DNA of 44,681 bases, taken from assembly GCA_017435865.1 (NCBI GenBank), contig JAFSEF010000087.1, positions 1-44,681 of the forward strand, read 5' to 3'. The notes below the pieces were generated by a model. It was not told the DNA's origin. It made no database searches and was given only the letters and a program-made list of their open reading frames with translations. This stretch comes from Clostridia bacterium (GTDB lineage Bacteria; Bacillota; Clostridia; Oscillospirales; Acutalibacteraceae). The translations under genes were made by a program, and so were the position numbers. Shown piece by piece: positions 354 through 34,888 of the stretch (position 1 is its first letter; the number at the start of each line of letters is the position of its first letter).

Positions 354-384
354 AAAAAGGAGCTGTGAAAACAGCTCCTTTTTT
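354..384 (-). terminator. Intrinsic terminator of the GTPase/SEDS/PBP operon
   Basis: A perfect stem GGAGCTGT/ACAGCTCC with a GAAA-type tetraloop is flanked by A and T runs. On the minus strand the stem is followed by a T tract, so it should stop transcription of the operon ending at 529. The A/T symmetry means it could work in both directions. Confidence 0.85.
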
Positions 385-422: not shown

Positions 423-541
423 TTGCAGCTTCGGTGCCGATCATTCGTATGTTGCAGCTTCGGTGTCGATCATTCATATGTTGCAGCTTCAGTGCTGATC
501 ATTCATATGTTGCGGATTTATTGCACGATTATTCGTATGTT
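423..541. repeat. 29-bp tandem repeats overlapping the 3' end of the PBP gene
   Basis: Four head-to-tail units start at 423, 452, 481 and 510 (period 29), and a partial unit starts at 540 (step 30). Read on the minus strand, each unit begins with a near-copy of GCTGCAACATACGAAT, which encodes the last residues (AATYE) of the PBP. The array therefore looks like repeated duplication of the gene's 3' end into its untranslated region. There are no variable spacers, so it is not a CRISPR array. Confidence 0.85.
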
Positions 542-2016
542 GCAGCGAGGTAGTCGATGACCGTCTGGATGTCGTCCACCAGTGCACCGCTGAGCTGCAG
601 GCCGTCGAGCTGCACCATCGTCAGGGTGTATTGCGGGTCTTCGGCAGGGAAGCTGCTTGTCAGCCAGATGTTGTTGCGGGTGTCGGACACCTCGGCGGTG
701 CCTGTTTTTGCATACACCGAGCCGGGTTGGTTGTTCCACTGCAGGCCGTAGTCATCGCCTGCCTGCAGCATACCTTTGCGGATGACTTCGCAGGCGGTTT
801 CGGACACGGTGAAACCGAGTTTGTGGGGTTTGCCCTCTTCACTTGTTTTGTTGGCGGGGTCGATCGAACGCAGCAGCATATAGGGGACAAGCATTTTGCC
901 GTCCGTCACGGCTGCGGACACAAAGATGTTCATGTACATGGGACTCAGCAGGAGCTTGCCTTGACCGAACGAGCTTTGCAGCAGTTCCCAACGGTCGTTT
1001 TCCGTGATGCCGTGGGACTGCACGAGCGTACCGAACTGTGTGGGAATGGTGCTGCCGATGCCGAGAGATTCAATGCCGTCGGTGTAAGCGAGCATATTTT
1101 TTTGTGTCACAAGGTCATAGGCTGCACGGCTGAACCACACGTTCGAGGACTTCTGAATGGCTTTGTAGATGTCCACATTGGTGTAATAATAATCGCCGTA
1201 GTTTGCGATGGTGCCCAGTCCCTCAAAGGTGTATTTGCCGCCGTCGTTGTCAAGCACGGGGAAGATGCCGTTGTCGGCAAAAACGGCAGCACTGACAAGC
1301 TTGAAAACCGAACCGGGGGTCAGTGCGGCGGTTGCGTTGTTGACGTATTCGCCGTTCTGATACAGCTGTTCTGCTTCCTCATTGGTCACGGACGGGTCAT
1401 AAGACGGGGTGCTGACCATGGCAAGCAGTTCGCCTGTTTTGCAGTTGGTCAGTACGCCTGCACCGATGTGATCCTGCAGCAGGGTATACAGCAATTCCTG
1501 CAGGTTGACGTCAATGGTCAGGTATACGTTGTCACCGCGTTGTGCATCGATGTTTTTCTTCTTCAATCCCACAAGCAGCTGATTGAAATAAACTTCCGCA
1601 CCTTCGCTGCCGTAGTATGCATCGGGTTGTGAGCCGATGACGTGGGCAACGCTGTGGGTGTAATAAAGCTGCCGTTGGGTGGTTCCGTCTTCATTCTGCA
1701 GCGTTTCGGCAAGCAGTTTGCCGTTGCGGTCATAAATCGGACCACGCAGATGCTCACGTTCAAGACTGGTGCTGACAATGCTCTTGTATTTTGCACTGTC
1801 GCCGTCCATGCGGTTGTTGAGCATGACCGAAAATGTGACGGGAATCAGCAGGCAGATGATCAGAAACAGGGAAAATGACATTCGCGTCAGAATGTACAGG
1901 GATCGGGTCGTCATGGTCGGACGCGGATTGTCAAGCAGCAGACGGAATCTGCCGGGCATCTGTGTTGCTTTGCGGACCGGGGAAGGTCGGTTATCCTTTT
2001 GCGAACGGTTCGTCAT
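529..2016 (-). CDS. pbpA: Class B penicillin-binding protein (PbpA/FtsI-type transpeptidase)
   Basis: This is a DD-transpeptidase that cross-links peptidoglycan from outside the membrane. Counting from the ATG at 2016, one membrane segment lies at about residues 39-64. The three penicillin-binding motifs are present: SVFK at about 236-239, SSN at about 290-292 and KTGTAE from about 437. The serine of SVFK is the predicted acyl-enzyme nucleophile. The protein is about 495 residues, usual for monofunctional PBPs that pair with a SEDS glycosyltransferase. The start overlaps the end of the upstream ftsW-like gene by 26 bp. AAAGGAGG lies 14 bp before the ATG at 2016, but a TTG at 2022 sits at a better 8-bp spacing and may be the true start. 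It is the last gene of the six-gene operon. The last codons lie inside a 29-bp tandem repeat. Confidence 0.93.
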   Translation of the reverse strand: MTNRSQKDNRPSPVRKATQMPGRFRLLLDNPRPTMTTRSLYILTRMSFSLFLIICLLIPVTFSVMLNNRMDGDSAKYKSIVSTSLEREHLRGPIYDRNGKLLAETLQNEDGTTQRQLYYTHSVAHVIGSQPDAYYGSEGAEVYFNQLLVGLKKKNIDAQRGDNVYLTIDVNLQELLYTLLQDHIGAGVLTNCKTGELLAMVSTPSYDPSVTNEEAEQLYQNGEYVNNATAALTPGSVFKLVSAAVFADNGIFPVLDNDGGKYTFEGLGTIANYGDYYYTNVDIYKAIQKSSNVWFSRAAYDLVTQKNMLAYTDGIESLGIGSTIPTQFGTLVQSHGITENDRWELLQSSFGQGKLLLSPMYMNIFVSAAVTDGKMLVPYMLLRSIDPANKTSEEGKPHKLGFTVSETACEVIRKGMLQAGDDYGLQWNNQPGSVYAKTGTAEVSDTRNNIWLTSSFPAEDPQYTLTMVQLDGLQLSGALVDDIQTVIDYLAATYE

Positions 2017-3568
2017 TGACAAGGAAACAACCTCCTTTCGTTTCGGCAGCTTCGGCAAAGTTGTCTGTATATTTTTTGTTTGTGCGGTGGTAATGCAGGT
2101 CGGTCACAAGAATCACGGCAAGCATCATAAAGCTGACCGCAAGGCTGGAACCGCCCTTACTGACAAGCGGAATGGTAATACCCGTCAGCGGCAGCAGGTT
2201 GTTGACACCCAGCACGTTGATGCACATCTGCACCACAAGGGTGGCTGCCATGAGGAATGCACCGTAGCGGCCGAACAGAGGACAGTTGCGGCAGACGATG
2301 TCGAGTGTGGTGTCGGCAAGAATCAGGAAGGCTGCAAGCATGACGAGGATGCTCAGGTAGCCGCCTGTCTGCAGAATGGACGTGTAGATGTAGTCCGATT
2401 CCCCGACGGGCACATAGGTGAACACGGGTCCTGTCGAAAACAGACCGCTGATGCCGATGGCATTGAGTGCACAGCGTGCCTGATACACATAGTATTCCTG
2501 AATAACGTCACGCAGCGTCTGACTCAGGTTCGGGTCGGTGCCGTCAATGTCCACGCAGACCATGAAACGCATATAAACCTTTTCGTAGTTGGATGTGAAT
2601 TTGTCGAGCACGGTGTTGATGAGCTTGCCGTGATCCTGCTCAAAGAAAGAGGGTTCTTCCTGCGTGATTTCTTCACCCTCTGCAGGCGGATCGGCATAGA
2701 CTTCTTCAATGTAGCTGTTGCCGAAGCTGATGACCACTGCCATCACCACGCAGACGAACACCGCGATGAAGCCGAGCAGACCGCCTGTCAGCAGCCAGCT
2801 TTTGCTGTAAATGATCAGAAACAGTGCAAACACGGCTGTCACGACCAACAGGCTGCCCAGTTCGCTCTGTGCGACATAGGTCAGGGCAAGCAGCAGGTAA
2901 ACGCTGACAAGGTAAAACAGTTTTTTGCGGTAGCTCATGTATTCTTCCGCAACACCTGCCACAAGGGCGGTGAAAAACAGAAAACCGAATTTGATGAATT
3001 CACCCGGCTGCAGGCGGCCGTTGAAGAGCCACTGCGAGCCTGTTGCAAGGGAATACCCTGCCGTTGCAATGGCGGCAAGACACAGCAGAATGCAAAAGAA
3101 CGGAACGGCTTTTGCCTGCAATTGCTGCCTGCCTGCGTGCATGACCCAGTAGCAGACCGCCATGCACACCGCACCTGCAACAATGCCGACCCCGATGAAC
3201 AGCAGGCTGTCGGTGACAATTTCACGCACATCCGTACCCGTGGTTTCGGGGAAGGTATCCACAAAAACGCACTGTGCGGAAAATCCCGTTGTCAGCAGCA
3301 AATCAGCCGCAAACAGCAAGGGTGCGTTGAGTTTTATGAGCCTTGACACACCGAGGAACAGGATGTCGGTAACACCGAACAACAGGGCAATCGAGGCAAT
3401 GTCGGCACGGATGTTGAACCGCAATGCAAGGCAATACAGCAGGTACAACTGATATACAAGGGTAAAACCGACCTGCACCAGAGGATTTGCAATCAGGGTG
3501 CGGAAAGTCAGCAGCACACGGTTGCCCGTGACGGGAAGTTGCTGCAAGGACAGTTTATTGCTCTGCAT
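1991..3568 (-). CDS. FtsW/RodA/SpoVE-family SEDS peptidoglycan glycosyltransferase
   Basis: This is a polytopic membrane protein of 525 residues with about ten hydrophobic segments. It should polymerise lipid II into glycan strands together with the class B PBP encoded next. Diagnostic sequences are LQPGEFIKFGF in the middle, QSELGSLL after it (family usually QPDLGT), and GITIPLVSKGGSSL at about residue 463, which corresponds to the family's C-terminal SYGGSS signature with Lys in place of Tyr. A large loop of roughly 100 residues rich in Glu/Asp precedes the last membrane segments. The start at 3568 is chosen for AAGGAGG eight bases upstream; it overlaps the preceding gene by 14 bp. Whether it serves elongation, division or sporulation cannot be told from the sequence. 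Confidence 0.92.
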   Translation of the reverse strand: MQSNKLSLQQLPVTGNRVLLTFRTLIANPLVQVGFTLVYQLYLLYCLALRFNIRADIASIALLFGVTDILFLGVSRLIKLNAPLLFAADLLLTTGFSAQCVFVDTFPETTGTDVREIVTDSLLFIGVGIVAGAVCMAVCYWVMHAGRQQLQAKAVPFFCILLCLAAIATAGYSLATGSQWLFNGRLQPGEFIKFGFLFFTALVAGVAEEYMSYRKKLFYLVSVYLLLALTYVAQSELGSLLVVTAVFALFLIIYSKSWLLTGGLLGFIAVFVCVVMAVVISFGNSYIEEVYADPPAEGEEITQEEPSFFEQDHGKLINTVLDKFTSNYEKVYMRFMVCVDIDGTDPNLSQTLRDVIQEYYVYQARCALNAIGISGLFSTGPVFTYVPVGESDYIYTSILQTGGYLSILVMLAAFLILADTTLDIVCRNCPLFGRYGAFLMAATLVVQMCINVLGVNNLLPLTGITIPLVSKGGSSLAVSFMMLAVILVTDLHYHRTNKKYTDNFAEAAETKGGCFLVNDEPFAKG

Positions 3569-4154
3569 CCGTATCGCCTCCTTGTATTGCCGCAACGGCA
3601 AGTTGTTTTGTCTCTTTTTCAGCGGCAGATTCCGTAATAAAGGCTTTGAAACGGAATGTCTGCGCGATGTTGAAATAAACGGGTTCGTCCCTTACAAGCA
3701 CCGCATCGGCCGCAACGGGGTCAAAGCGGCTTTCGCCTGCCGCAATGGAATAATCCCCGGGACGGTAGACCTTTTTGTTGGTGTCGGGCAGCAGCAGGAA
3801 TTCACCCGTGGGCTGCACAAACACATAGGCATGACGGCGGTTGTCATAAAAAACGGAACAATAGATGTCACCCACCTCATAAGAGGGGTCCAGTGACAGG
3901 TAAAATCCTTCGGCATTGCCGATGGTAAAGCTTTCTTCGCGGATGTAAACGGTGCGGCGGTTGGCTGCGTTTTCACCCGTCCACACCGTCAGGCACAGTA
4001 CGGGGATGTCGGTTCGCTCACGCTGTGTGGCGGCATCCTTGGTGCCGAAGCGGAAGACGGCAAGCATTTCCTGCCATTGCCGGGCAAACCCGCGTTTTAT
4101 TTTTTGCAGCATCACACCGATGCTTTTCAGAAGGGCAAACAACAGGTCAGTCAT
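3555..4154 (-). CDS. FHA-like domain protein of the cell-wall operon
   Basis: A 199-residue protein with a basic amphipathic N-terminal helix (about 1-35) and a beta-rich C-terminal domain. The pattern ESFTIGNAEG, LSLDPSYEVGD, CSVFYDNRRHAYVF and a late YRPGDYSIAAGESRF follows the strand order of forkhead-associated domains, with TIGN in the place of the usual IGR. The conserved Arg and Ser that bind phosphothreonine are not evident, so it may be a degenerate or non-phosphopeptide-binding FHA fold. AGGAGG six bases before the ATG at 4154 supports the start. In Actinobacteria, FHA proteins sit beside rodA-pbpA, which makes the neighbourhood suggestive. The FHA call is an inference from pattern only. 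Confidence 0.55.
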   Translation of the reverse strand: MTDLLFALLKSIGVMLQKIKRGFARQWQEMLAVFRFGTKDAATQRERTDIPVLCLTVWTGENAANRRTVYIREESFTIGNAEGFYLSLDPSYEVGDIYCSVFYDNRRHAYVFVQPTGEFLLLPDTNKKVYRPGDYSIAAGESRFDPVAADAVLVRDEPVYFNIAQTFRFKAFITESAAEKETKQLAVAAIQGGDTDAEQ

Positions 4155-4167
4155 TGCAATCCTCCTT

Positions 4168-6501
4168 TCAGCAGACAAGCGACACAACGGCCGCTGTCAG
4201 CATGGTAAGACCGGGGGAAAGCAGAAGTCCTGACAGGCTTTTTTTACGTAGAACAAGGTGCAGCACCACCAGTACGGCACCGACGGCTGCAAACAAATAC
4301 GGTGCAATCGTCTGCCATGTTGAGGGGGCAAGTTCCTGCGGCAGGCTTGCGGGCTGCACAAACAGCACCATCACGCACAGCACCGTGACCGCACACTGCA
4401 GCAACCACGGCAGGACTTTTCCCACAGCCGAAAGGAAGCGACGCGGTACGGATTTGTTGTTGACCGAAAGGTCGGCGGCATTGGTTGCAGGATACAACCG
4501 CAGGCAGAAATCTTTACGCATCTGCACCAGAAAACGTGCATAGGCAATGTATTCTTTTTCGCCCGTAAGCACGTCGGGAGCCAACACAACAAGCTGTCTG
4601 CACAGCAGCGTTTCAAGCCGCAGGTGCATGGGTGTTGCAGGCAGGTAACCGACAGCGTTGAGAATGGCAGGCACAAGGGTGTGAATATCTTCCCATGTGC
4701 AGTCTTTTGCAAGCAATTCCGCAAGGCGGCTGACGGCACTCTCACGCACACGCTGTGCTTTTTCGGGGTCGGTCGGCAGATGCAGCTCGCTGAGCTTTTG
4801 CAGGGAATCGTATTTTGCGGCAAGCGGTTCAACGGGGCCTGACGAGGGCAGGTCTTCTTCACGAAGCTGCAAGGCTTTGATGCACACAAGCAGGTCATCG
4901 TAAGCGATGTGCTTGTGCAGGAGTATTTCTGCGGCGGCCGTGAGTCTTGCCTTGTCATTCTGCAATCCGACCGCACACGCACCGCAGAACCATGCAAGAG
5001 CGGTTTTGTCGGTGGTTTTTTCGAGCAATGTTTCAAAACGGGCAAGCAGGCAGGAAAGCACCGCCTGTGCCGTGGACGGACGTTTGTAGAGTTTGTTGAT
5101 GCAGCCGAGCCAATCGTCGTTGCCGTCTTCAAAATAGGCATCGAGTGCACGGTTGGTGACTGCCTGTGCATAGGCGGGATTGTCCGCTTCGAGAACACGC
5201 AGACCCTCATAGAAAGAGGTTGGGGTGGGTTTTTCGGGCAATGCAAAGGTGAAGTGCATTTTCATTTTCATGTCACGCAACAGGGACAGACTCTGCTGCG
5301 AGTCGCCGAGTTTTTCGGACAGAATGTGCAGGAAGTCGGTTTTCTCGCCGGTTTCGGCAAACACATAGCTTGCCGCAAGCAGTGCAAGGTAGCCGTCCTG
5401 CTCTTTGTTTTCGTAGGCATCAATGCCGCGTTCTGCCAATGCGTGGACGTTGGAAAGCAGCAGAGAACGCACTGTTTTTGCCTGTTCGGCAGAGGACAGA
5501 CCCATGCCGACGGCAGCACCGCACAGATCAAACCAATCCGCATCGGCGTTGGTGAAATAGAAAGAAAAAGCAGTCACATCCGCTGTCTTTACGGCAGGCA
5601 GAATGCCTTTTTCGGCAAGCATCAGTTCCAGAAGCGGCAGGCGGAGTTCTTTTTCGCCGCTGCAGCACAGCACCCAGTTTTCAAGAATCGGGCAGATCTT
5701 TTTGCGGTAGGCGGTCAGACCGTTTGCTGCAATGTATGTGCCGAGTTTTTCGAACACGGCAGCGATTGCATAGGAGGGCACAGGGTGCAGCAGGTCAAAA
5801 ACCGCTTCGGGTGCGTTGGCAAGCAGAAGATGGCTGCAATCGAAGCTCTTGTTGTAGGTTTCTTTTTCTGCCGAAAAACGCAGACGAACCTGTTTTTGCA
5901 GGCTGTCGGGCAGCAGCAGAAGCAGAAGGGATGCAAGGGCAAGCATCTCGTCGGATGCTCGGAAGTCATCGTCGGATGCACCGCCGTAAGGTACGGACAT
6001 GGTGACGGGAATACCGCCGTTCATAAACGGAGCAAAGGCACATTGCAGCAGGGCTGCCACGGCACGTGCATCTTTACCGAGCAGGTCGCAAAGGCTGTCG
6101 GCAGGAACGGAAAGCCGTCTGTTTTCGAGTTTGGGAAGCAGGCGGGTTTCGTGGATGACCGCAGCATCGCTTCGCAAGGTCAGCGTTGCGATGAGGTGGT
6201 CTGCTTTGTGTTGTACGGTGGCGGCTGCTTTGTAAGCACCTGTTTCGTCCGGGATGGTCAGATGAAAAAACTGACCGCGGCCGTCACGTCTGATGAACAC
6301 CTTGCAGAATCTGCCGAGAACGGGGCAGAACAAAAAGCGTTCTTCATTGCGGTAGCCGCTGAATGAAATGCGGCAGACAAAGTCACGCAGTGCCGTGTGC
6401 AGACGTTCATCGGTGATGCTGCCTGCAAGGATCTGCTGACCGACTTCAGGCAGGCTGCCGTAATAAAACTGATCAAAACGCAGTGAAATTTCCTGACTCA
6501 T
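4168..6501 (-). CDS. Large membrane-anchored protein, GAP1-like GTPase partner (tentative)
   Basis: A 777-residue protein. The N-terminal about 100 residues (FDQFYYGSLPEVGQQIL, then VLGRFCKVFIRRDGRGQFF) resemble the N-terminal domain of the predicted GTPase-associated protein 1 (GAP1) family. The middle is a long alpha-helical region with no motif I recognise, and the last about 80 residues hold two or three membrane segments (about 695-777). The next gene upstream encodes a zinc-ribbon P-loop GTPase only 13 bp away, matching the known pairing of GAP1 proteins with such GTPases. AGGAGG lies eight bases before the ATG at 6501. I infer that it is a regulatory or scaffold partner of the GTPase that tethers it to the membrane near the FtsW-like and PBP proteins. 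The family assignment needs a profile search. Confidence 0.5.
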   Translation of the reverse strand: MSQEISLRFDQFYYGSLPEVGQQILAGSITDERLHTALRDFVCRISFSGYRNEERFLFCPVLGRFCKVFIRRDGRGQFFHLTIPDETGAYKAAATVQHKADHLIATLTLRSDAAVIHETRLLPKLENRRLSVPADSLCDLLGKDARAVAALLQCAFAPFMNGGIPVTMSVPYGGASDDDFRASDEMLALASLLLLLLPDSLQKQVRLRFSAEKETYNKSFDCSHLLLANAPEAVFDLLHPVPSYAIAAVFEKLGTYIAANGLTAYRKKICPILENWVLCCSGEKELRLPLLELMLAEKGILPAVKTADVTAFSFYFTNADADWFDLCGAAVGMGLSSAEQAKTVRSLLLSNVHALAERGIDAYENKEQDGYLALLAASYVFAETGEKTDFLHILSEKLGDSQQSLSLLRDMKMKMHFTFALPEKPTPTSFYEGLRVLEADNPAYAQAVTNRALDAYFEDGNDDWLGCINKLYKRPSTAQAVLSCLLARFETLLEKTTDKTALAWFCGACAVGLQNDKARLTAAAEILLHKHIAYDDLLVCIKALQLREEDLPSSGPVEPLAAKYDSLQKLSELHLPTDPEKAQRVRESAVSRLAELLAKDCTWEDIHTLVPAILNAVGYLPATPMHLRLETLLCRQLVVLAPDVLTGEKEYIAYARFLVQMRKDFCLRLYPATNAADLSVNNKSVPRRFLSAVGKVLPWLLQCAVTVLCVMVLFVQPASLPQELAPSTWQTIAPYLFAAVGAVLVVLHLVLRKKSLSGLLLSPGLTMLTAAVVSLVC

Positions 6502-6514
6502 TCGCGATCCCTCC

Positions 6515-8470
6515 TTATTCGTAGATTTTGTTGAGGAACCAGTACAGCGGTTCCGTCAGGTTGACAGGGTCCCAACCCTCTGCGAAGAAACGCAGAACGG
6601 AGTTTTCTTCAAATGCTTCCATGCCCAGAGCCGACACGGGGAACACGCTCAGGTCGCGTGCATGGCGGATGCAGGCAGAAAGATTGATGCTGTCATCGGG
6701 GAAAATATGCCGCAGATAATACTGCCGCAGCATATTCGCCTGCTCGTCAAACTGCACTTCGCAACCCGTGGACTGTGCGGGTCTTTCGTTGTGCGTGAAC
6801 AGACGGTTTTCGGCAATGGCGGCAAGTCGGAAACTGCCTTCGGACGGCACAAAACGCTTACGCATTTCTTCGTCCTCGCAAACGGCAGTGATGACATCCT
6901 GTAAGGTGACATTGGTTTGTGTTTCTTCGGGTTCGACGCTGTATCTGACAATGGAACTGCGGAACAGAAGATCCGAAAAGCGGTTGATGACATAGCCTGC
7001 GATCTCCTCGGGGGAACAGTGCAGATATTCGGCAACAAGGCGGTTGCACAGCTGCGAGAGTGCATTGGTCTGCACCGTTGCGGTGGGAGTCGTCAGGTGG
7101 AAACGCATGATGCGGGTGAATGTATCGCTGAAATCCTTTTCAAAAGATTGGGTCAGCCGTTGCAGAAAAGCCTCCTTGTCGGCCTTGGGAATGATCAGTG
7201 CAAGGTGCGGCAGACCGTGACTCAGGGAGTTTTCGATGAAACTGTTGACGGATGCAAGTCCTGTTTCCGAGGTGCACACGTCTGCAAACAGGAACAGGGC
7301 ATCGGCAGTGCGGTAAAGGTCTGTGTTGTTGACACCCTCAATGTGCATGGCAAGGTTTTCACCGGGGAAGTCACAGATGTTGACGAAACGGCGGCGGACT
7401 TTGCCGTTTATTTTTTTGTGCAGCACAAACAAAAACGGAATCGGACGGGTGTCGAGTGTGCCGCTGCCTGCCGCTGTCCCGGTTTGCGTAAAAGAAAACA
7501 CATCGGGTGTTGCAGGGGCAGGCGTCATGGCTGCGTTGAAAACATCCACAGGCGACATGGGCTGCTGTGAACGGTTGCCCACGGAAAAAGAGGATTTACG
7601 CAGATTCTGCTCGTCAATGGCTTCACGGGCGGTCTGATTGGGGATGATGCCTTTGGAAAACTTGTCGATCCGTTCGGCAAGCTCGGCATCCAGCGGTTCG
7701 GGAATGCTCAGCCAGCAATCGTTGTTGACGGGCACATTTCTGTTTTTGTAAAGGTAATAAAGCAAAGCGGTCTGCCATACGGTTTTGCCGACCTTGGGAT
7801 CACCGATGAGGTTGATGCTCAGCGGATCGTCCGTGATATCCAGAAATACGTTCGGCAGCAGACGTTTGCAGTAGGGGCACACGGGGGTCAGGGCAAGTGC
7901 AAGAATGTATTTGTCGCTTTTGAGCTCCTTGTCACGGAATCGAAGCTCCATTCTGTCCATGCCGTCAATGCGGTTGCGGATGACCTGCAACTGCGGCATG
8001 GAGGCGTTTTTGCCCGAACGCATTTTTTTGCGTCTGAGGTAGGCATCGCGGAATGCCCAGTACCAGACCGCATTCAGCACATGGCTTTTTGCGGTGCCTG
8101 TGTAGTTGACGGGATCAAAAGAAAAACGGGTACCCAGGGAATACTGTGCAAGGTCAAACAATTCCTTGTAGTCCTGCGGAATGTCATTGTGAATGATCAT
8201 CCATGCAATGCTGCGGTGTTTGTTTTTTTCGGTCAAGGACTGCACAAACGCAAGCGAACGGTTGAAATTGGTGGTGTCATGCAGTGCATCGGCTGCTTTT
8301 TGTGCACCCAGACGGTCGGCAACACCGTTTTTGCCGCGGTTCTGCTTTGCACCGTTTTCGATTGCCTGTTTGTTGGCTTTGAAGGCGGTTTTTTCAATGC
8401 GGCCGCCGTCAAGCAAATCCATGGCAATGGTTTCGCGGCAGTACGGACAGCGTTTGAGTTCATATTCCAT
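6515..8470 (-). CDS. Zinc-ribbon P-loop GTPase (double-GTPase/TRAFAC-like)
   Basis: A 651-residue predicted GTPase. A CPYC pair at residues 8-11 and a second CPYC at 198-201 could together form one zinc ribbon split by a helical insertion. The nucleotide-binding domain follows at once: P-loop GDPKVGKT (223-230), a DFPG switch II motif (367-370) and PKADK (428-432) in the place of the base-recognition NKxD motif. A poorly conserved segment rich in Ser/Pro/Thr (about 295-345) interrupts the domain. This order resembles the double-GTPase proteins found next to GAP1-type partners. GGAGG seven bases before the ATG fixes the start. There are no membrane segments, so recruitment to the membrane would have to come from the partner protein. 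The role in cell-wall synthesis is inferred from the operon only. Confidence 0.75.
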   Translation of the reverse strand: MEYELKRCPYCRETIAMDLLDGGRIEKTAFKANKQAIENGAKQNRGKNGVADRLGAQKAADALHDTTNFNRSLAFVQSLTEKNKHRSIAWMIIHNDIPQDYKELFDLAQYSLGTRFSFDPVNYTGTAKSHVLNAVWYWAFRDAYLRRKKMRSGKNASMPQLQVIRNRIDGMDRMELRFRDKELKSDKYILALALTPVCPYCKRLLPNVFLDITDDPLSINLIGDPKVGKTVWQTALLYYLYKNRNVPVNNDCWLSIPEPLDAELAERIDKFSKGIIPNQTAREAIDEQNLRKSSFSVGNRSQQPMSPVDVFNAAMTPAPATPDVFSFTQTGTAAGSGTLDTRPIPFLFVLHKKINGKVRRRFVNICDFPGENLAMHIEGVNNTDLYRTADALFLFADVCTSETGLASVNSFIENSLSHGLPHLALIIPKADKEAFLQRLTQSFEKDFSDTFTRIMRFHLTTPTATVQTNALSQLCNRLVAEYLHCSPEEIAGYVINRFSDLLFRSSIVRYSVEPEETQTNVTLQDVITAVCEDEEMRKRFVPSEGSFRLAAIAENRLFTHNERPAQSTGCEVQFDEQANMLRQYYLRHIFPDDSINLSACIRHARDLSVFPVSALGMEAFEENSVLRFFAEGWDPVNLTEPLYWFLNKIYE

Positions 8471-8487
8471 TGTGTAGCCTCCTTCTT

Positions 8488-9090
8488 TTATGTTACGGGC
8501 AGTTGCCAGCAGCAGTGTCCCGAACAGATGAATTTCAGTGTGAAGCTGCGTTCGGTGTCCGTCAGCAGGTAGGATGTGTCGAGTGTGATGTACAGCGGAC
8601 GGTCATTGAGCTTCTGCGGATTGCCGATGCTTTTTCCGTTGGGCTGCAGCTCATACAGGTACAGGTCGGGACCGCTGTACTGCACCGTACGCAGGTTCAT
8701 GCCCTTGCCGACACGGTTCGGAGCCGTCCAGATCCGCAGGCGGTTGCCTTTTGTGCGGCGGACGGTGACAAAGGAAATGCTCACACCGTCGTTTTCTTCG
8801 AGTCCTGTTTTGTTCGGGGTTGCAATGTGCAGTGCTTCAAAACGGAAAAAGTCACTGTTGAATGCAATGTTTTGCGGCTTTGCATTGGGGACGGCAGCAA
8901 AACCGAGATACGTCCGTCCCGGCTGCACGGGGTCCTCGGGCAGAACAAAATACTGGCATTGTATGTAGAGCGTCTGCGGACAAAGTTGCAGCAACATTTT
9001 TTCACCCAATGAACGGGTGGACTTTTTGTCTGCCAACCGCAATGCCCACTTTTTTGTGCTCTTCTGCAGGCTGCTGCGCAACGAATTCAT
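8488..9090 (-). CDS. Unknown protein, first gene of the GTPase/SEDS/PBP operon
   Basis: A 200-residue protein I do not recognise. It has a basic N-terminus, no signal peptide and no membrane segment, and a beta-strand-rich body with several short alternating hydrophobic stretches. It could be a small beta-sandwich adaptor, but no motif confirms this. The start at 9090 is chosen because CGGAGG lies seven bases upstream; a longer frame reaching 9168 would run through the promoter. It is the first gene after the consensus promoter at 9140-9168 and ends 17 bp before the GTPase gene. Confidence 0.75.
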   Translation of the reverse strand: MNSLRSSLQKSTKKWALRLADKKSTRSLGEKMLLQLCPQTLYIQCQYFVLPEDPVQPGRTYLGFAAVPNAKPQNIAFNSDFFRFEALHIATPNKTGLEENDGVSISFVTVRRTKGNRLRIWTAPNRVGKGMNLRTVQYSGPDLYLYELQPNGKSIGNPQKLNDRPLYITLDTSYLLTDTERSFTLKFICSGHCCWQLPVT

Positions 9091-9139
9091 GTGACAACCT
9101 CCGTTTTTTGTATTTTTAAAGAATAATAATCTAATATAT

Positions 9140-9168
9140 ATTATATTATGAGGCTTGCACTTTGTCAA
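9140..9168 (-). promoter_or_regulatory. Consensus sigma-A promoter of the cell-wall operon
   Basis: On the minus strand, TTGACA (9168-9163) and TATAAT (9145-9140) are separated by exactly 17 bp. Both hexamers match consensus perfectly. It lies about 50 bp upstream of the start at 9090. Confidence 0.92.
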
Positions 9169-9287: not shown

Positions 9288-9316
9288 TTGACAAATTGAG
9301 TAAATAATAATATAAT
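9288..9316 (+). promoter_or_regulatory. Consensus sigma-A promoter of the citrate synthase operon
   Basis: TTGACA (9288-9293), a 17-bp spacer and TATAAT (9311-9316) give a perfect consensus promoter. It fires away from the equally perfect promoter at 9140-9168, with about 120 bp between the two -35 boxes. Confidence 0.92.
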
Positions 9317-12661: not shown

Positions 12662-13458
12662 GTGCTGTCGGCAGGGAAGACCTGCAGGCTGTATTTGCAG
12701 AATATCCGTGGGGAATCTGTCCGTTTGAGGCAATACGCGACCGCCTGTTGCCCGTACGCAGTCTGCAAAGGCTGCCCGACGGGGCAAAAACCGTCTTTTT
12801 GGTGCTTTTTCCGTATCTGCTGGACGAGGATGTGTATGCACAAACGCAACTCTCACGCTATGCCGTGTCGGCGGATTATCATCTGTTGTGCGGTGAAAAG
12901 CTCGATGCCATGTGCACCCGTCTGCAGGAGATGTTCCCCGGAAACACCTTTGTCCGTTTTACGGATGCATCCCCCATTCCCGAAGTGTATGCGGCTGCCT
13001 GTGCAGGTCTGGGAAAGATCGGCAAAAACGGTCTGCTGCTGCACAAAGACTTCGGTTCATGGGTTTTTATAGGCGAAATCGTCACGGATCTGTGCGTGCC
13101 GTGTGAAGCGGCTGCACCTGTGTTGTGTGACGGCTGCAATGCCTGTGTGCAGGCTTGCCCTACGGGGGCTTTGTCTGCAGACGGTGTTTGTGTGCAGCGT
13201 TGTCTTTCGCATATTTCCCAAAAAAGAAAGCTGACAGACGATGATGTTTCCCTCTTACGTGCACATACTGTATTGTGGGGATGCGACCGCTGCCAGCTTG
13301 CCTGTCCGCAAAACAGGAACGCAAAAACAACTTTTGATATTTCTTTTAAATCTACCGTAAAAACCGTTCCGGACAGGGACGATCCGCAACGTGCGTATGC
13401 ATGGCGTGGGGAAGCCGTGTTCCGCAACCTCGGTCTGCTTGAACAGGAGAAGGAATGA
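12658..13458 (+). CDS. queG: Short QueG-like epoxyqueuosine reductase
   Basis: QueG reduces epoxyqueuosine to queuosine in tRNA, using cobalamin and two [4Fe-4S] clusters. The 266-residue protein has the N-terminal region with GLGKIGKNGLLLHKDFGSW, then CDGCNACVQACPTGAL and a second group CDRCQLACPQNR, which together supply the cluster cysteines. It is shorter than proteobacterial QueG (about 350-380) and lacks the C-terminal HEAT-like part; such short versions are common in clostridia. The start is a GTG at 12658 that overlaps the AEC stop as GTGA, and the stop overlaps the holB start as ATGA. The epoxyqueuosine substrate is assumed from the family. Confidence 0.82.
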   Translation: MSAVGREDLQAVFAEYPWGICPFEAIRDRLLPVRSLQRLPDGAKTVFLVLFPYLLDEDVYAQTQLSRYAVSADYHLLCGEKLDAMCTRLQEMFPGNTFVRFTDASPIPEVYAAACAGLGKIGKNGLLLHKDFGSWVFIGEIVTDLCVPCEAAAPVLCDGCNACVQACPTGALSADGVCVQRCLSHISQKRKLTDDDVSLLRAHTVLWGCDRCQLACPQNRNAKTTFDISFKSTVKTVPDRDDPQRAYAWRGEAVFRNLGLLEQEKE

Positions 13459-14324
13459 AACAACCAACCGCCAAGACCGATATCCTGCCTGCTGCTCTGC
13501 TGTCGCTGATCCGCACAGGGCGTTGTCCCCATGCGGTGCTGCTTGCCGGCGGCGACGAACGAAGCCGCAAAAAAGCCTGCGAAACAGCGGCTGCCGCCTT
13601 GCTGTGCGAAAACCGCGAGCAAGCTCCCTGCGGCAAATGCAAAGCCTGCATCAAAACCAAGGCAGGCACCCATCCGGATATCAGCATCTTTACGGGAACG
13701 GAAAAAACACATTCCGTGGGCATTGCCACCATCCGCGATTCCATCCGTTCGGGACTTTATATTTCGCCCAATGAGGCACAACGAAAAGTCTATGTGCTGC
13801 CCGATGCCGACGGCATGACCCGTGAAGCACAGAACGCTTTCCTCAAAACACTGGAAGAACCGCCTGCTTATGTCAGTTTTGTATTGGGAGCAGACAGCAA
13901 ACAAAAACTGCTTTCGACCGTGCTTTCACGCTGCACCGCATTTTCATTGGGTGAAAAGACGGAAAAGGAAGGCACGGAACGTGACATTGCGGCTGCCCTT
14001 GCGGCTGCACTTGCACGAAAGAACGAGTTTGAACTGATCAATGCCGCTGCACCTTTGCAGAAAAACCGTAAACTGATTAAAAAAACGGCGGTGTACCTGC
14101 AGACCTTGCTGCGTGATGCGGCAGCAAGCGATGCCAACGTGCCGACCTTGTCGGGACTTGAACGTGAAGCCGTGCAGCTCGGTACAGCGTTCAATATGCA
14201 TCAGATTACGCAGTTGATGTCTGTGCTGCGTGATATCTGCGAATATGCAGACAAAAATGCAAACGAAAATCTGTTGCTCTGCGTGCTGACATCGCGTCTT
14301 GCAGCAGTCTGGAAAGCAGAGTAA
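13455..14324 (+). CDS. holB: DNA polymerase III delta' subunit
   Basis: Clamp-loader subunit of the replicative polymerase. The 289-residue protein shows the family features: a degenerate nucleotide-binding loop (AGGDERSRKKA, no GKT), a zinc module CGKCKAC with an upstream Cys, VLPDADGMTREAQNAFLKTLEEPP, and the SRC sensor region at LSTVLSRC. Loss of the P-loop lysine is normal for delta'. The gene overlaps queG by four bases (ATGA) and lies directly before ricT, a pairing conserved across many Bacillota. The length is a little short compared with typical delta' (about 320). Confidence 0.93.
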   Translation: MKQPTAKTDILPAALLSLIRTGRCPHAVLLAGGDERSRKKACETAAAALLCENREQAPCGKCKACIKTKAGTHPDISIFTGTEKTHSVGIATIRDSIRSGLYISPNEAQRKVYVLPDADGMTREAQNAFLKTLEEPPAYVSFVLGADSKQKLLSTVLSRCTAFSLGEKTEKEGTERDIAAALAAALARKNEFELINAAAPLQKNRKLIKKTAVYLQTLLRDAAASDANVPTLSGLEREAVQLGTAFNMHQITQLMSVLRDICEYADKNANENLLLCVLTSRLAAVWKAE

Positions 14325-14373
14325 TCTCTGCATGAAACGGCAGCCCGACGGCTGCATGAAAGGAAGATGTATT

Positions 14374-15237
14374 ATGGCTGAAGTCATCGGCGTACGCTTT
14401 AAAGATGTCGGCAGAGTGTACTATTTTGACCCCATCGGTTATAAAATTGAAAAAGGCAAAAAGGTCATTGTGGAAACCGTCCGCGGTGTGGAATGCGGTA
14501 CGGTTGCACAGGAAAACAAAGAGGTTTCCGACGAAGAAATCGTAAAACCTCTGAAACCCATCATCCGTCCTGCCACCGAACAGGACGAAAAGCAGCTGAT
14601 CGTCAATGCCGAAAAAGAGAAAAAGGCATTTGCCATCTGCGAACAAAAAATTGCCGCCCATAAGCTCGATATGCACCTTGTGGAGGCTGAATACACATTT
14701 GACTGTGCAAAGCTGCTGTTCTTCTACACAGCTCCCAACAGAGTCGATTTCAGAGGCCTTGTCAAGGATCTTGCTTCCGTATTCCGTGTACGCATTGAAC
14801 TGCGTCAGATCGGTGTGCGTGACGAAGCAAAGATGCTCGGCGGCTTAGGAATCTGCGGCAGACCCTTCTGCTGTAAGGAATTTTTGTCCGATTTCCAGCC
14901 GGTGTCCATCCGTATGGCAAAAGAACAGGGCTTGTCGTTGAATCCCGTCAAAATCAGCGGTACCTGCGGCAGACTGATGTGCTGCCTGAAATACGAACAG
15001 TCTTCCTATGAACATCTGCTGCGTATCACACCCAAAATCGGTGCCCTTGTGGACACGGTGGAAGGCAAGGGTGTGGTTGTGGATAACAACCTGCTGACAG
15101 GCATTCTGAAGGTCCGCCTTGATCGCAGACCCGATGCGGCTCCCTTTGTTGTCAGCCGCAAAGACTGCAAGCTTATCAAGGACGGACGCATTCATGTGGA
15201 CAAGGCAGAGCTGGAAGCATTGAAAGATATTGAATAA
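14374..15237 (+). CDS. ricT: PSP1-domain protein RicT (YaaT)
   Basis: RicT is part of the RicAFT (Y-) complex, which in Bacillus subtilis carries [4Fe-4S] clusters and acts with RNase Y on mRNA maturation. The 287-residue protein has the PSP1 fold and the cysteine-rich block GGLGICGRPFCC followed by GTCGRLMCCLKYEQ, supplying the cluster ligands. AAAGGAAG lies eight or nine bases before the ATG at 14374. It follows holB by 49 bp, in keeping with the holB-yaaT order of Bacillota. An AT-rich hairpin with a T run follows at 15265-15290. Confidence 0.93.
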   Translation: MAEVIGVRFKDVGRVYYFDPIGYKIEKGKKVIVETVRGVECGTVAQENKEVSDEEIVKPLKPIIRPATEQDEKQLIVNAEKEKKAFAICEQKIAAHKLDMHLVEAEYTFDCAKLLFFYTAPNRVDFRGLVKDLASVFRVRIELRQIGVRDEAKMLGGLGICGRPFCCKEFLSDFQPVSIRMAKEQGLSLNPVKISGTCGRLMCCLKYEQSSYEHLLRITPKIGALVDTVEGKGVVVDNNLLTGILKVRLDRRPDAAPFVVSRKDCKLIKDGRIHVDKAELEALKDIE

Positions 15238-29583: not shown

Positions 29584-30261
29584 TTATATTTCCGATTCGG
29601 GAAGAATGTTTTCAAATTCACCGTTTCGCAGCACACGCACGAGTGTTTCAACCGAATCGAGTCTGCAATCGGTGAGAATGCCGCCCATACGCGGCTTTTT
29701 GGTGTGGTGAAAATCACCGCCGCCCGTTTGCAGGCGGATGCCGTTTTCGTTTGCCCACTGACGGGCTTTTTCGCGTTCTTCGGGACTGTCCTTGCCGTTG
29801 AGGACTTCCACGCCGTCAAGCAGTGTCGGGTCACAGCAGGTCATCCATTCACGGAAGGGATGTGCCTGAATCATCACAATGCCCTGTTCGCGGCACAGTG
29901 CGGACAGTTTTTTCGGATAGGCTCTCAACAGGTTGCCGTTGGATTGCAGAAACCGCTGTACATCTCCGAACAGAAGATAGTCGTTGATGGTGGCATAAAA
30001 GCGGATTTCGCAGCCGGGCAGCACGGTAAAGTCGGTTCCCTCGGCGGCTTCTTTGGCGGCACGGTAACCGCGGAAGTAAAAGTCGGTGTGCTTTTGCGGA
30101 CAAAACAGCTTTGTCAGCGGAAAGGTCATGGGTGAAAAATGGTCGGTCACTACCAGACCGTCGTAGCCGTGTTCGCGGTACATTCTGACAACGTCTGCTG
30201 CAGGTGCGGTGGCACAGACACTGGTCTCGGCTGTATGGCAATGCAATTCGTATTTATACAT
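29584..30261 (-). CDS. PHP-domain phosphoesterase
   Basis: A 225-residue metal-dependent hydrolase of the polymerase and histidinol phosphatase (PHP) family. Metal-binding motifs are ELHCHTAETS at the N-terminus, VVTDHFS near 38-44, GCEIRF near 83, MIQAHPFREW near 130 and GGGDFHH near 180. The members of this family hydrolyse various phosphoesters; the substrate is unknown. The gene overlaps the HD gene by 8 bp and has a weak ribosome-binding site (AAAGAGAG), so it is probably coupled to it. Confidence 0.88.
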   Translation of the reverse strand: MYKYELHCHTAETSVCATAPAADVVRMYREHGYDGLVVTDHFSPMTFPLTKLFCPQKHTDFYFRGYRAAKEAAEGTDFTVLPGCEIRFYATINDYLLFGDVQRFLQSNGNLLRAYPKKLSALCREQGIVMIQAHPFREWMTCCDPTLLDGVEVLNGKDSPEEREKARQWANENGIRLQTGGGDFHHTKKPRMGGILTDCRLDSVETLVRVLRNGEFENILPESEI

Positions 30262-30817
30262 CGGACTCTCTTTCTTTCATCAGTTCTTTTGCAATTTTTT
30301 GCACGGTCGGGGTTTTAAGCTGCTGCAATCCCTGCAACCATGCGGCCGTATCTTCGTCCGTAAACAGGGACGGATCGTTTTTTTGCAGGCAGCAGAATGT
30401 GTAAATGGCCTGCAGGTTGTCTATGTCTTTGGCAACGAGTGCGTTGTAGGTGCTTTGTGTGTCCCACTGCTGCCACAAGGTGCGTTGCTGCGGTGTGCAC
30501 TCGCCCGACAGCAGGCTGCGTTCGGCAGCTTCGCGTTCAAGTCGGTCATAATAGTCCGGGTTCTGTTTTTTTACGGGTCGCGGAATGTCCCCCGTGATCG
30601 CTTCGGGCAGGTCATGCAGCAAAAGCATGGCAAGAATGTCCTGTTTGTCGTAATCGGGATGCTTGTCTTGTTCGGGCAGCAAAAAGGTGCCAAGCAACCA
30701 GCAGCCGTAAATGTGTTCGGCAACGCTTTCGGGATTCTGCACACCGCGTTGCACCCAGCCTGTGCGGCTGACTTGTGAGAGCGATGCGAAGAGTCTGTAT
30801 TTTTCGGCTCCGGTCAT
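30254..30817 (-). CDS. HD-domain hydrolase (YfbR/HDDC2-like)
   Basis: A 187-residue HD-domain phosphohydrolase. ESVAEHIYGCWLL near residue 30 and MLLLHDLPEAITGDIP near 64-79 supply the His/Asp metal ligands in the pattern of 5'-deoxynucleotidases YfbR and HDDC2. A probable role is nucleotide house-cleaning, but the substrate is not fixed by the sequence. GAGGA precedes the ATG at 30817. It is the first gene of the leftward run that continues through PHP, GH36, rsmI, the lipoprotein and the Stn-like genes, with gaps of at most 32 bp. Confidence 0.87.
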   Translation of the reverse strand: MTGAEKYRLFASLSQVSRTGWVQRGVQNPESVAEHIYGCWLLGTFLLPEQDKHPDYDKQDILAMLLLHDLPEAITGDIPRPVKKQNPDYYDRLEREAAERSLLSGECTPQQRTLWQQWDTQSTYNALVAKDIDNLQAIYTFCCLQKNDPSLFTDEDTAAWLQGLQQLKTPTVQKIAKELMKERESDV

Positions 30818-31796: not shown

Positions 31797-33176
31797 ATGG
31801 AAAAAATACTCTGTTTCCCCGAACCGAATGAAAAACAGAAATTATTTTTGCGTGATACGCACAAGTATGTTGCCTTCGGCGGTGCCAGAGGCGGCGGCAA
31901 AAGCTGGGCGGTGCGTGTGAAGTCGATTCTTTTGTGCCTGAAATATCCGGGCATCAAAATCATGATCGTGCGACACACCTATCCCGAACTCAGGGCAAAT
32001 CACATTGTCCCCATGCGTGAAATGCTCTCTTCCTTTGCCGTCTACAAGGAAACGGCAAAAGAGTTTCATTTTCCCAACGGCAGCGTCATTCTGTTCCGTC
32101 ACTGTCAGACGGACAAGGATGTTGACAAGTACCAGGGAACAGAGGTGGACGTGCTGTTTCTGGATGAAGCAACGCAGCTCAGCGAAGAACAGTACAACCG
32201 ATTCAAAGCCTGTGTACGCGGTGTCAACAAGTTCCCGAAACGCATTTACCTGACCTGCAATCCCGGTGGGGAAGGTCACGGCTGGGTCAAGCGGCTGTTC
32301 ATTGACCGCAACTACAACATGGGTGAAAACGCACAGGAATATTCTTTCATCCAGTCCCTTGTCACCGACAACAAAGCCTTGCTTGCAAGCGACCCCGACT
32401 ATGTAAAACAGCTCGAAGCATTGCCGCCCAAACTCCGCAAAGCATGGCTGGAAGGTGACTGGAACATTTTTGAAGGACAGTTTTTTGAGGAGTTTGCCGA
32501 CCGTCCCGAACACTATGCCGACCGCCGCTGGACACACGTCATTGAACCCTTTGAAGTACCGTCCGACTGGAACATTGTGCGTTCGTTCGACTTCGGTTAT
32601 TCCAAACCTTTTTCCTGTGACTGGTGGGCGATCGATTATGACGGCAGAGCGTATCTGATTCTGCAGCTTTACGGCTGCACGGCAAATCCCGACGAGGGTG
32701 TGCGTTGGTACCCGGACCGCATTTTCAAGGAGATCAGACGCATTGAGTGTGAGCATCGGTGGCTGAAAAACCGCCGCATCACAGGGGTTGCGGACCCGTC
32801 CATCTGGGATGACTCACGCGGAAATGCCGTCATTGACAGTGCCGACCGCCACTTTGTGTATTTTTCAAAAGGGGACAACCGCCGTCTGTCGGGCTGGATG
32901 CAATGTCACTACAGGCTCGCTTTTGACGAAAACGGCTTTCCGATGGTCTATTTCTTCAATACCTGCCGCCATGCCATCCGTACCCTGCCGCTGCTGCAGT
33001 TTTCCGAAACCGACCCCGAAGATCTCAACACGCACATGGAGGATCACTTTGCGGATTCTTTCCGCTATTTCTGTATGTCGCGGCCCGTTACACCCGTGCG
33101 TGTGCAGAACACGTATGAACTGGGTGATGATCCGCTTGACCAACGTGTGCGGTATGCCCCTTACACCTACCGCTGA
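31797..33176 (+). CDS. terL: Phage terminase large subunit
   Basis: The 459-residue packaging motor: an ATPase that pumps DNA into the prohead and a nuclease that cuts it. The ATPase domain has Walker A GGARGGGKS (about 28-36) and Walker B VLFLDEAT (about 118-125), with a coupling motif around LTCNPGGEGHG. The nuclease domain has the acidic residues of SFDFGYSKPF (about 263), GVADPSIWD (about 328) and DHFADSFRY near 420. AAAGGAG precedes the ATG. It is full length and shows no decay. Confidence 0.96.
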   Translation: MEKILCFPEPNEKQKLFLRDTHKYVAFGGARGGGKSWAVRVKSILLCLKYPGIKIMIVRHTYPELRANHIVPMREMLSSFAVYKETAKEFHFPNGSVILFRHCQTDKDVDKYQGTEVDVLFLDEATQLSEEQYNRFKACVRGVNKFPKRIYLTCNPGGEGHGWVKRLFIDRNYNMGENAQEYSFIQSLVTDNKALLASDPDYVKQLEALPPKLRKAWLEGDWNIFEGQFFEEFADRPEHYADRRWTHVIEPFEVPSDWNIVRSFDFGYSKPFSCDWWAIDYDGRAYLILQLYGCTANPDEGVRWYPDRIFKEIRRIECEHRWLKNRRITGVADPSIWDDSRGNAVIDSADRHFVYFSKGDNRRLSGWMQCHYRLAFDENGFPMVYFFNTCRHAIRTLPLLQFSETDPEDLNTHMEDHFADSFRYFCMSRPVTPVRVQNTYELGDDPLDQRVRYAPYTYR

Positions 33177-33196
33177 AAACCGAAAGGAGAGAATCA

Positions 33197-34888
33197 ATGA
33201 AAGAAACCCCGAACCAATCCGCTGCAGTTGTCACTGCCGAAACCGTCCGTGAAGCGGCACGCATTCTCGAACGCTACAAGGCAGGCAAAGCATCGCTTGA
33301 ACAACGGATTGTTGAAAATGAGATGTGGTTCCGTATGCGTCACTGGGATCGTCGCGCCGGTGACAGAAAAAAGAACGCATCTGCGTGGCTGTTCAATTCC
33401 ATTGCCACCAAACACGCCGATTTTATGGATGCACTTCCCGAATGCACAGTGCTGCCCCGTGAGGAATCCGATATCCCTGCCGCCGAAATCCTCAGCAAGG
33501 TTGTCCCTGTCATCCTTGAAAACAACGGTTTTGAACGTGTGTATTCGGATGCGACCATGTACAAGCTCAAAACAGGTACGGCGGTGTATGCCGTGTTGTG
33601 GAATCCGCAGGCTGACCGCGGTCTCGGTGACATTGAGATTGCACAGACGGATCTGCTGAACCTGTTCTGGGAACCCGGCATCAGAAAAATTCAGGACAGC
33701 CGCCACCTGTTCCACGTCAGCATCACCGACAACGAAACGCTGATCGAAACCTATCCCTTCCTTGCAGGCAAGCTTTCGCAGCCCTTGGTGGACATCAAAC
33801 AGTACATCAGCGACGATGCCGTCGAAAACGGTGACAAGTCCGCTGTTGTGGACTGGTACTACAAAAAGCGTGTCAACGGACAGCAGGTGCTGCATTATTG
33901 CAAGTTTGTCGGCAGCGAAGTGTTGTATGCATCGGAGAACGATCCGCAATATGCACAACGCGGTTACTATGACCACGGAAAATATCCCTTTGTGTTCGAT
34001 CCGCTGTACAACGAGGAGGGATCGCCTGTCGGCTTCGGCTTCATTGACGTTATGAAGGATGCCCAGGAGGCAATCGACGTGCTCGGTACGGAAGTGCTCC
34101 GCAACGCACGCATGGCTGCCAGACGGCGTTATTTTACCCGTACCGACGGTGCAGTCAACGAAGCGGAATTTGCCGACTGGGACAAGGATTTTGTACACGT
34201 CAGCGGCTCGTCCCTCGGTGAGGAAAGCCTGCGTGAAATCGACACCCAACCTCTGCCGGGTGTGTATCTGACCGTTCTGCAGAGCAAAATTGAAGAACTC
34301 AAGGAAACGAGTGCCAACCGCGATTTCTCACAGGGCGGCACCATGGGCGGCGTTACCTCGGGTGTTGCCATTTCGGCTCTGCAGGAGGCAGGCAGCAAGC
34401 TTTCACGCAGCATGGTCAACGCATCCTACCGTTCTTTTTCGGAGCTGTGCCTGTTTGTCATTGAGCTGATCCGACAGTTCTACAACACACCGCGTATGCT
34501 GCGTATCACCGATCCCAACGGGATTGAGCAGTTCGTTTCGCTTGACAATTCTGCATTGCTTGCCCGTCCGCAGACAGGCGATTTCGGTGTGGAATACGGC
34601 GACCGTATGCCCGTGTTTGATGTCCGTGTCAAGGCACACAAGATGAATCCGTTTTCACGTACGGCACAAAACCAGGATGCCATCAACTTTTTCCAGATGG
34701 GTATGTTTGATCCTGCCCGTTACAAGCAGGCACTCGCGTGTCTTGAGCTGCTGGACATTGAAAACAAGGACAGACTCATTTCCGCCATCACACGCAACGG
34801 CATGGAATATGAAGCACAGCAGGCGGCCGCTGCTGCAAATGCCGCTGCCTTTGCACAGTCTGCTCAAAACGGAGAAACGCAGATATGA
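33197..34888 (+). CDS. Phage portal protein
   Basis: A 563-residue protein forming the ring through which DNA enters and leaves the capsid. The position directly after terL, the length, the N-terminal basic region with RKKNASAWLFNSIATKHADF, the long stem-like helices (LQSKIEELKETSANRDF, then a Gly-rich GGTMGGVTSGVAISAL loop) and an Ala/Gln-rich C-terminus fit the larger podovirus-type portals. AAAGGAGAG lies upstream of the ATG. The stop overlaps the next start as ATGA. Confidence 0.9.
   Translation: MKETPNQSAAVVTAETVREAARILERYKAGKASLEQRIVENEMWFRMRHWDRRAGDRKKNASAWLFNSIATKHADFMDALPECTVLPREESDIPAAEILSKVVPVILENNGFERVYSDATMYKLKTGTAVYAVLWNPQADRGLGDIEIAQTDLLNLFWEPGIRKIQDSRHLFHVSITDNETLIETYPFLAGKLSQPLVDIKQYISDDAVENGDKSAVVDWYYKKRVNGQQVLHYCKFVGSEVLYASENDPQYAQRGYYDHGKYPFVFDPLYNEEGSPVGFGFIDVMKDAQEAIDVLGTEVLRNARMAARRRYFTRTDGAVNEAEFADWDKDFVHVSGSSLGEESLREIDTQPLPGVYLTVLQSKIEELKETSANRDFSQGGTMGGVTSGVAISALQEAGSKLSRSMVNASYRSFSELCLFVIELIRQFYNTPRMLRITDPNGIEQFVSLDNSALLARPQTGDFGVEYGDRMPVFDVRVKAHKMNPFSRTAQNQDAINFFQMGMFDPARYKQALACLELLDIENKDRLISAITRNGMEYEAQQAAAAANAAAFAQSAQNGETQI

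Follow-up and report, generated by a model that had tools for sequence, protein, structure and literature searches.

The closest described relatives of the locus presented here are the DO-GTPase/GAP1 systems. In the account given in PMC7159879 (Kaur et al. 2020), N-terminal zinc ribbons and a conserved Glu in the Walker B motif are marks of the DO-GTPases, the GAP1 gene usually follows that of the DO-GTPase, and GAP1-N2 systems, with themes of tubulin, HSP70 and kinase/PP2C, are thought to act at the membrane. A DO-GTPase gene with a predicted role in membrane stress also occurs in some psp envelope-stress operons according to PMC11237479, which also cites a crystal structure for YcjX, a related protein. 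The subject of this analysis is a six-gene operon (g1 to g6) of a Clostridia bacterium, located at positions 529-9090 on the minus strand of contig JAFSEF010000087.1 (the window, that is the whole stretch analyzed, comprises 44,681 nt). In this operon, genes for a predicted GTPase of the DO-GTPase2 type and a GAP1-like membrane protein are joined to genes for a SEDS glycosyltransferase and a class B penicillin-binding protein (PBP; bPBP for class B). The best reading of the locus is that of a lineage-specific offshoot of the DO-GTPase/GAP1-type systems with an extra SEDS-bPBP synthase as its output.

The operon resembles these systems in having a zinc-ribbon GTPase with a Glu after the Walker B motif, a downstream gene encoding a protein with an N-terminus akin to GAP1-N2 and with hydrophobic segments at the C-terminus, and a variable module linked to the membrane. 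It differs from them in its output, a SEDS-bPBP pair (the words FtsW and penicillin occur nowhere in the main text of PMC7159879), and in that no FNIII, tubulin or vWA match was present among the operon proteins with Pfam. Pfam cut-offs were also missed; the curated cut-offs of Pfam, NCBIfam and PADLOC were reached by none of g1-g4. Two other described systems bear comparison. The actinobacterial pstP-rodA-pbpA-kinase locus with fhaA and fhaB, as presented in PMC6554272, likewise encodes a SEDS protein and a PbpA-like bPBP together with regulators; the operon, however, has a GTPase module instead of a kinase and phosphatase and no demonstrable FHA domain. PMC8144978 describes how MglA/MglB of Myxococcus, a GTPase and its partner, direct the Rod complex, which is a SEDS-bPBP machine; this, however, is a Ras-like GTPase that works via MreB and gliding motors, whereas the operon GTPase is of DO-GTPase2 type and is encoded beside its own synthase.

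All six open reading frames (ORFs) are co-directional, in the order g1-g2-g3-g4-g5-g6, with ATG starts set by Shine-Dalgarno sites at 9090, 8470, 6501, 4154, 3568, and 2016. Because these sites fix the starts, the listed ORFs of g1, g4, g5, and g6 are a little too long. The features of the operon are given below in the direction of transcription.

9140..9168, minus strand: operon promoter TTGACA-17-TATAAT, 12 of 12 consensus positions, with the g1 ATG approximately 50 nt past the second hexamer
8488..9090, minus strand: g1, 200 aa, soluble, without family match; ATG with a GGAGG site
6515..8470, minus strand: g2, 651 aa, predicted split zinc ribbon and GTPase of DO-GTPase2 type (motifs and hhalign)
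4168..6501, minus strand: g3, 777 aa, GAP1-like, three C-terminal hydrophobic segments (hhalign of the N-terminal part; hydropathy)
3555..4154, minus strand: g4, 199 aa, soluble, without family match; start by Shine-Dalgarno site
1991..3568, minus strand: g5, 525 aa, SEDS (FtsW/RodA/SpoVE) glycosyltransferase (PF01098 1.7e-30, over cut-off)
529..2016, minus strand: g6, 495 aa, class B PBP with PbpA-like layout (PF00905 3.6e-35, over cut-off)
approximately 354..384, minus strand: terminator-like hairpin, 13-bp stem and T run, read from the sequence and absent from the list of the consensus scan

The genes are closely packed, with 17 nt between g1 and g2, 13 nt between g2 and g3 and again between g3 and g4, and overlaps of g4 with g5 and of g5 with g6. 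Together with the promoter and the hairpin this makes the six genes look like a single transcription unit, as had been proposed in the initial annotation. The divergent citrate synthase gene possesses a 12/12 consensus promoter of its own at 9288-9316 (+), back to back with the operon promoter. At the other end, a tandem array at 423-546 (4.2 copies of a 29-bp unit) runs across the end of the PBP gene.

The zinc ribbon of g2 is split between C8/C11 and C198/C201 (window numbering), and its GTPase signatures read GDPKVGKT, DFPGE, PKAD, and SALG. The key residues (zinc ribbon, P-loop, DxxG then Glu, and KxD) are invariant in 4/4 orthologues. Comparison using hhalign with a Rhodococcus protein, assigned to DO-GTPase2 by PF19993 (30.2 bits, cut-off 27), gave an E-value of 8.5e-7 with a co-linear alignment over zinc ribbon, P-loop, DxxGE, and KxD, and a score of 56.5 against a maximum of 23.2 across 60 column shuffles (0/60 as good). 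With a second DO-GTPase2, from a genome of the same genus (G304), the match spans the zinc ribbon and P-loop part at an E-value of 1.2e-6, which 0/60 shuffles equaled. The predicted zinc-ribbon GTPase of the initial annotation is thereby upheld, and profile-profile comparison ties it firmly to DO-GTPase2. Searched by itself against solved structures, the g2 sequence had no match at E <= 1, and the best value for the alignments of g1-g4 was E 0.013.

The DO-GTPase2 locus of G304 (L046 3813-14100) is like the operon in possessing a GTPase related to g2 and unlike it in that this GTPase is accompanied by a 772-aa neighbor and a 1176-aa Tubulin_2 protein; across 17 kb of this locus no match to the operon SEDS or PBP profiles was found. 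A plasmid search with the G304 GTPase identified two Rhodococcus records, the same two that are found with the Rhodococcus GAP1 (100 and 94%), and the 772-aa neighbor had no plasmid match. Viral contigs yielded no family members that could serve as further references. In genome G300 (L047 8857-12959), a 352-aa protein scoring 22.8 bits for DO-GTPase2, below the cut-off, lies in a run of co-directional unknown genes; this small GTPase was considered as kin of g2 and rejected (hhalign E 0.24, no match).

For g3, a reference GAP1 confirmed by Pfam (PF20013 1.8e-18, PF20014 1.3e-8) was compared as a grid of three parts by three parts (nine cells) with 60 shuffles. The single significant cell was that of the g3 N-terminus against GAP1-N2 (score 26.4, E 8e-4), for which the shuffles reached at most 15.7 (0/60); the C part of g3 had no match in the grid. 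Hydropathy places three hydrophobic segments at the C-terminus in 4/4 orthologues. There is thus moderate support for a resemblance of the N-terminal domain to GAP1-N2, and on these comparisons the predicted protein is best named GAP1-like, not GAP1. The GAP1-like label originally suggested for the membrane partner is upheld for the N-terminal domain only. As to the family matches that the initial annotation asked of both the 651- and the 777-residue proteins, Pfam cut-offs were not reached, but profile-profile matches were obtained for g2 and, at the N-terminus only, for g3.

The assignment of the two wall enzymes as an FtsW/RodA-type glycosyltransferase and a class B PBP is borne out, with both over the Pfam cut-offs and their key residues kept. 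Residue D392 of g5 is invariant in the four orthologues and aligns with the Asp of RodA in solved structures as well as with the Asp of two other SEDS proteins of the same genome; we take this conserved Asp to be the catalytic residue. Compared with those two proteins, g5 is extended at the N-terminus and has, ahead of the conserved Asp, a loop that is longer by tens of residues. In g6, a single N-terminal hydrophobic segment was identified, the SxxK, SSN, and KTG motifs are invariant in the four orthologues, and the PbpA dimerisation domain (PF21922) is matched at E 0.0033 with 18.1 bits, below the cut-off of 27. A resistance-type PBP was considered for g6 and rejected; the NCBIfam matches are far under their cut-offs and represent the common transpeptidase domain, and resistance was not inferred. 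The two further SEDS genes were found in a genome that is approximately 85% complete, and by inspection one lies amid dcw-type genes and the other is RodA-like. As the profile of the operon SEDS scores only 50.9 bits on the RodA-like and 33.7 bits on the dcw protein, it is distant from both, and g5/g6 is predicted to be an extra SEDS-bPBP pair beside them.

The two small proteins are less well characterized. No Pfam family was found for g1 at E <= 1, and its orthologues in three genomes have 22-26% identity to the window protein. The initial annotation had regarded g4 as FHA-like, a label that the sequence does not support, as FHA (PF00498) gave no HMMER match in the window protein or any of four orthologues, and hhalign gave E 0.76 over the full length. 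For the core the value was 0.057, a level also reached by g1 (0.047), where five positive controls lay at 1.4e-18 to 2e-6. The motif SFTIGN of g4 sits in the register of the FHA start in this weak, non-significant alignment, and because that is the expected register a degenerate FHA fold is possible. The g4 orthologue of G302 (L012 5293-6504, minus strand) carries a Pro/Glu-rich tail of nearly 200 residues which is not found in the other three.

An identical order of the six genes was found in the window genome and three relatives (G302, G187, and G261), two being goat caecum metagenome genomes and one an Oscillospiraceae metagenome genome. Within the genus, g3 is present in 4/26 genomes (3/12 among the more complete ones). 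The operon-type SEDS (E <= 1e-20) occurs in 4/59 relatives, these being the same four of the 26 genus genomes, with 0/33 among the others; no genome of the 26 searched for both has g3 alone or this SEDS alone. In a sample of 300 family genomes, which does not include G302, g2 occurs in three, all of this genus. Wider searches gave nothing further that held up, whether with the g3 profile in 394 order genomes, the g2 profile in 391 class genomes or the g5 profile at 1e-28 in 345 order genomes. Two weak order-level matches of the g3 profile were rejected, one (L045) being the C-terminal hydrophobic stretch aligned over a metalloprotease-like membrane protein (HExGH motif by inspection) and the other (L044) having an internal stop and lying opposite a longer ORF. 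Two short g3 peptide patterns, of a kind that misses distant relatives, returned three loci across the species-genome collection, in the same three relatives. The linkage to the wall genes is accordingly conserved in four genomes and is no one-genome coincidence, but it was found in one genus only and is not general in the family.

A PHP-like neighbor gene (so labeled by sequence inspection, Pfam having no match at 1e-5) shares 78-80% identity with its counterparts in G302, G187, and G261, and no other match among 17 genomes exceeds 50%. Judged from this gene, the four operon genomes appear to be one clade, and their co-occurrence therefore reflects about one origin. No relatives of g2 or g3 were found in viral contigs or plasmids, and on this ground a mobile-element origin of the operon was rejected. 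The same contig encodes, next to each other at 31797-34888 (+), a phage terminase large subunit (PF04466 3.4e-15) and a P22-like portal (PF16510 2.6e-35), which are predicted to be a prophage or its remnant.

Among the three lineages (G000, which is the window genome, G302, and the pair G187/G261), the operon proteins are 22-47% identical, and within the close pair 76-89%. Five neighboring genes allow a comparison of the window with its relatives: a PSP1 protein, a membrane protein of 314 aa, and citrate synthase are 84-89% identical and the PHP-like gene 78-80%, but a membrane protein of 366 aa only 50%, which means that the operon is not alone in evolving fast. For the remaining flanking genes, comparison among the relatives gave 39 to 98%. 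ORFs that lie antisense to better genes were left out, namely those at 12879-13904, 13944-14387, and 30209-30778 of the window and two in L039. Between G187 and G261, the ratio of non-synonymous to synonymous substitution (dN/dS) is 0.10-0.17 for the six operon genes and 0.08-0.28 for three neighbors. The six genes are intact, functional and under purifying selection, and these ratios show no sign of positive selection at this distance. Synonymous divergence of the same pair (L006/L007) is 0.67-0.90 for the operon genes and 0.20-0.55 for the three neighbors, and the higher values could represent recombination or replacement of the operon.

The surroundings of the operon vary. In G187 and G261, it is flanked by the PHP-like gene and citrate synthase, with every gene pointing the same way; in the window, it adjoins citrate synthase but is inverted, with the PHP-like gene approximately 20 kb off; in G302, the PHP-like gene precedes it, and citrate synthase was not observed. 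The pair G187/G261 has an overlap of 4 nt between the PHP-like gene and the listed GTG start of g1 (L007 12138-12141, L006 12153-12156), and because of this overlap the operon of the pair may start with a gene ahead of g1, unlike that of the window.

A mechanism can be proposed from the structure of the operon and from what is known of the families, and we would give it about an even chance, namely that a membrane-anchored GTPase/GAP1-like switch gates a dedicated, conditional SEDS-bPBP peptidoglycan synthase. The C-terminal helices of g3 would anchor g2 at the inner membrane and g3 would sense the state of the envelope; GTP-loaded g2, via g3 and the small proteins g1 and g4, would open or position the g5/g6 synthase, and GTP hydrolysis would shut it. 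As the synthase is extra to the dcw-encoded and RodA-like SEDS, it would be expected to act conditionally, for instance in wall repair or in a special mode of growth. The observed base of this proposal comprises the operon layout, the intact GTP-binding and transpeptidase/SEDS motifs, the co-occurrence and the purifying selection. Several results weigh against it. Contact or regulation between switch and synthase is a prediction, and neither a second GTPase nor an FNIII partner was identified among the six operon proteins by Pfam (FNIII at E <= 1). For PF19993, Pfam gave no match for window g2 at E <= 1, and the best orthologue reached E 0.15 (1/4). No Pfam cut-off was reached by g3, its GAP1 match is to one domain of one reference protein, and its middle gave no match to GAP1-M (35/60 shuffles as good or better). 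At full length, the same g3 alignment was best by a thin margin (29.2 vs 27.7 for the best of 60 shuffles), and the N-terminal part against the putative GAP1 of G304, itself without a Pfam match, was not significant (5/60 shuffles). Finally, the co-occurrence amounts to approximately one origin and not four; of the four genomes, two are closely related and at least three derive from metagenomes.

With the contact as a prediction and a small sample of common ancestry, the genes could share a promoter simply to be expressed together, perhaps as part of a developmental or stress programme, with neither the switch pair nor the wall enzymes directly controlling the other. This is rather improbable in our view, given that the gene order is kept at 22-47% protein identity and that neither g3 nor this SEDS is found alone in the genus. 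A DO-GTPase/GAP1-type conflict (defense) system, whose SEDS-bPBP output builds or disturbs the wall locally upon an invader or wall attack, is slightly better favored but still unlikely. It would agree with the DO-GTPase2/GAP1-N2 kinship of g2/g3, with six strongly divergent proteins whose neighbors are for the most part better conserved, with the restricted distribution and with the joining of a constant switch to variable outputs described for such systems in PMC7159879; it fits poorly with a PADLOC result of one weak match (g5, E 0.064), with the low dN/dS, with a position adjoining citrate synthase in 3/4 genomes and with the lack of g2/g3 relatives in viral contigs or plasmids. Equivalence to the actinobacterial pstP-rodA-pbpA-kinase locus, with phospho-signaling replaced by the GTPase and by g4 as a degenerate FHA protein, is very improbable, since FHA in g4 is not supported and Pfam found no kinase or phosphatase among the six operon proteins, to which the search for them was limited, even though g6 is a PbpA-like bPBP with a SEDS partner and SFTIGN falls, without significance, in the register of the FHA start.

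To return to the gated synthase, the initial annotation had suggested that GTP-regulated wall synthesis was undescribed. This has to be narrowed, as GTPase control of wall synthesis is known from MglA/MglB, acting on the Rod complex in the account of PMC8144978, and so only the present arrangement would be new; no description of a SEDS-bPBP pair in an operon with a DO-GTPase2/GAP1-like switch was found in the open-licence literature searched. That such a switch directly controls its own SEDS-bPBP pair, as a further, fast-evolving output theme beside tubulin, HSP70 and kinase, is put forward tentatively and with less than even confidence. In the account of PMC7159879, the DO-GTPase/GAP1 systems are presented as computational predictions, with no functional test shown there. 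A wall-synthase-linked version would give these systems a measurable output, and it would add a GTP switch to the known controls of SEDS-bPBP enzymes.

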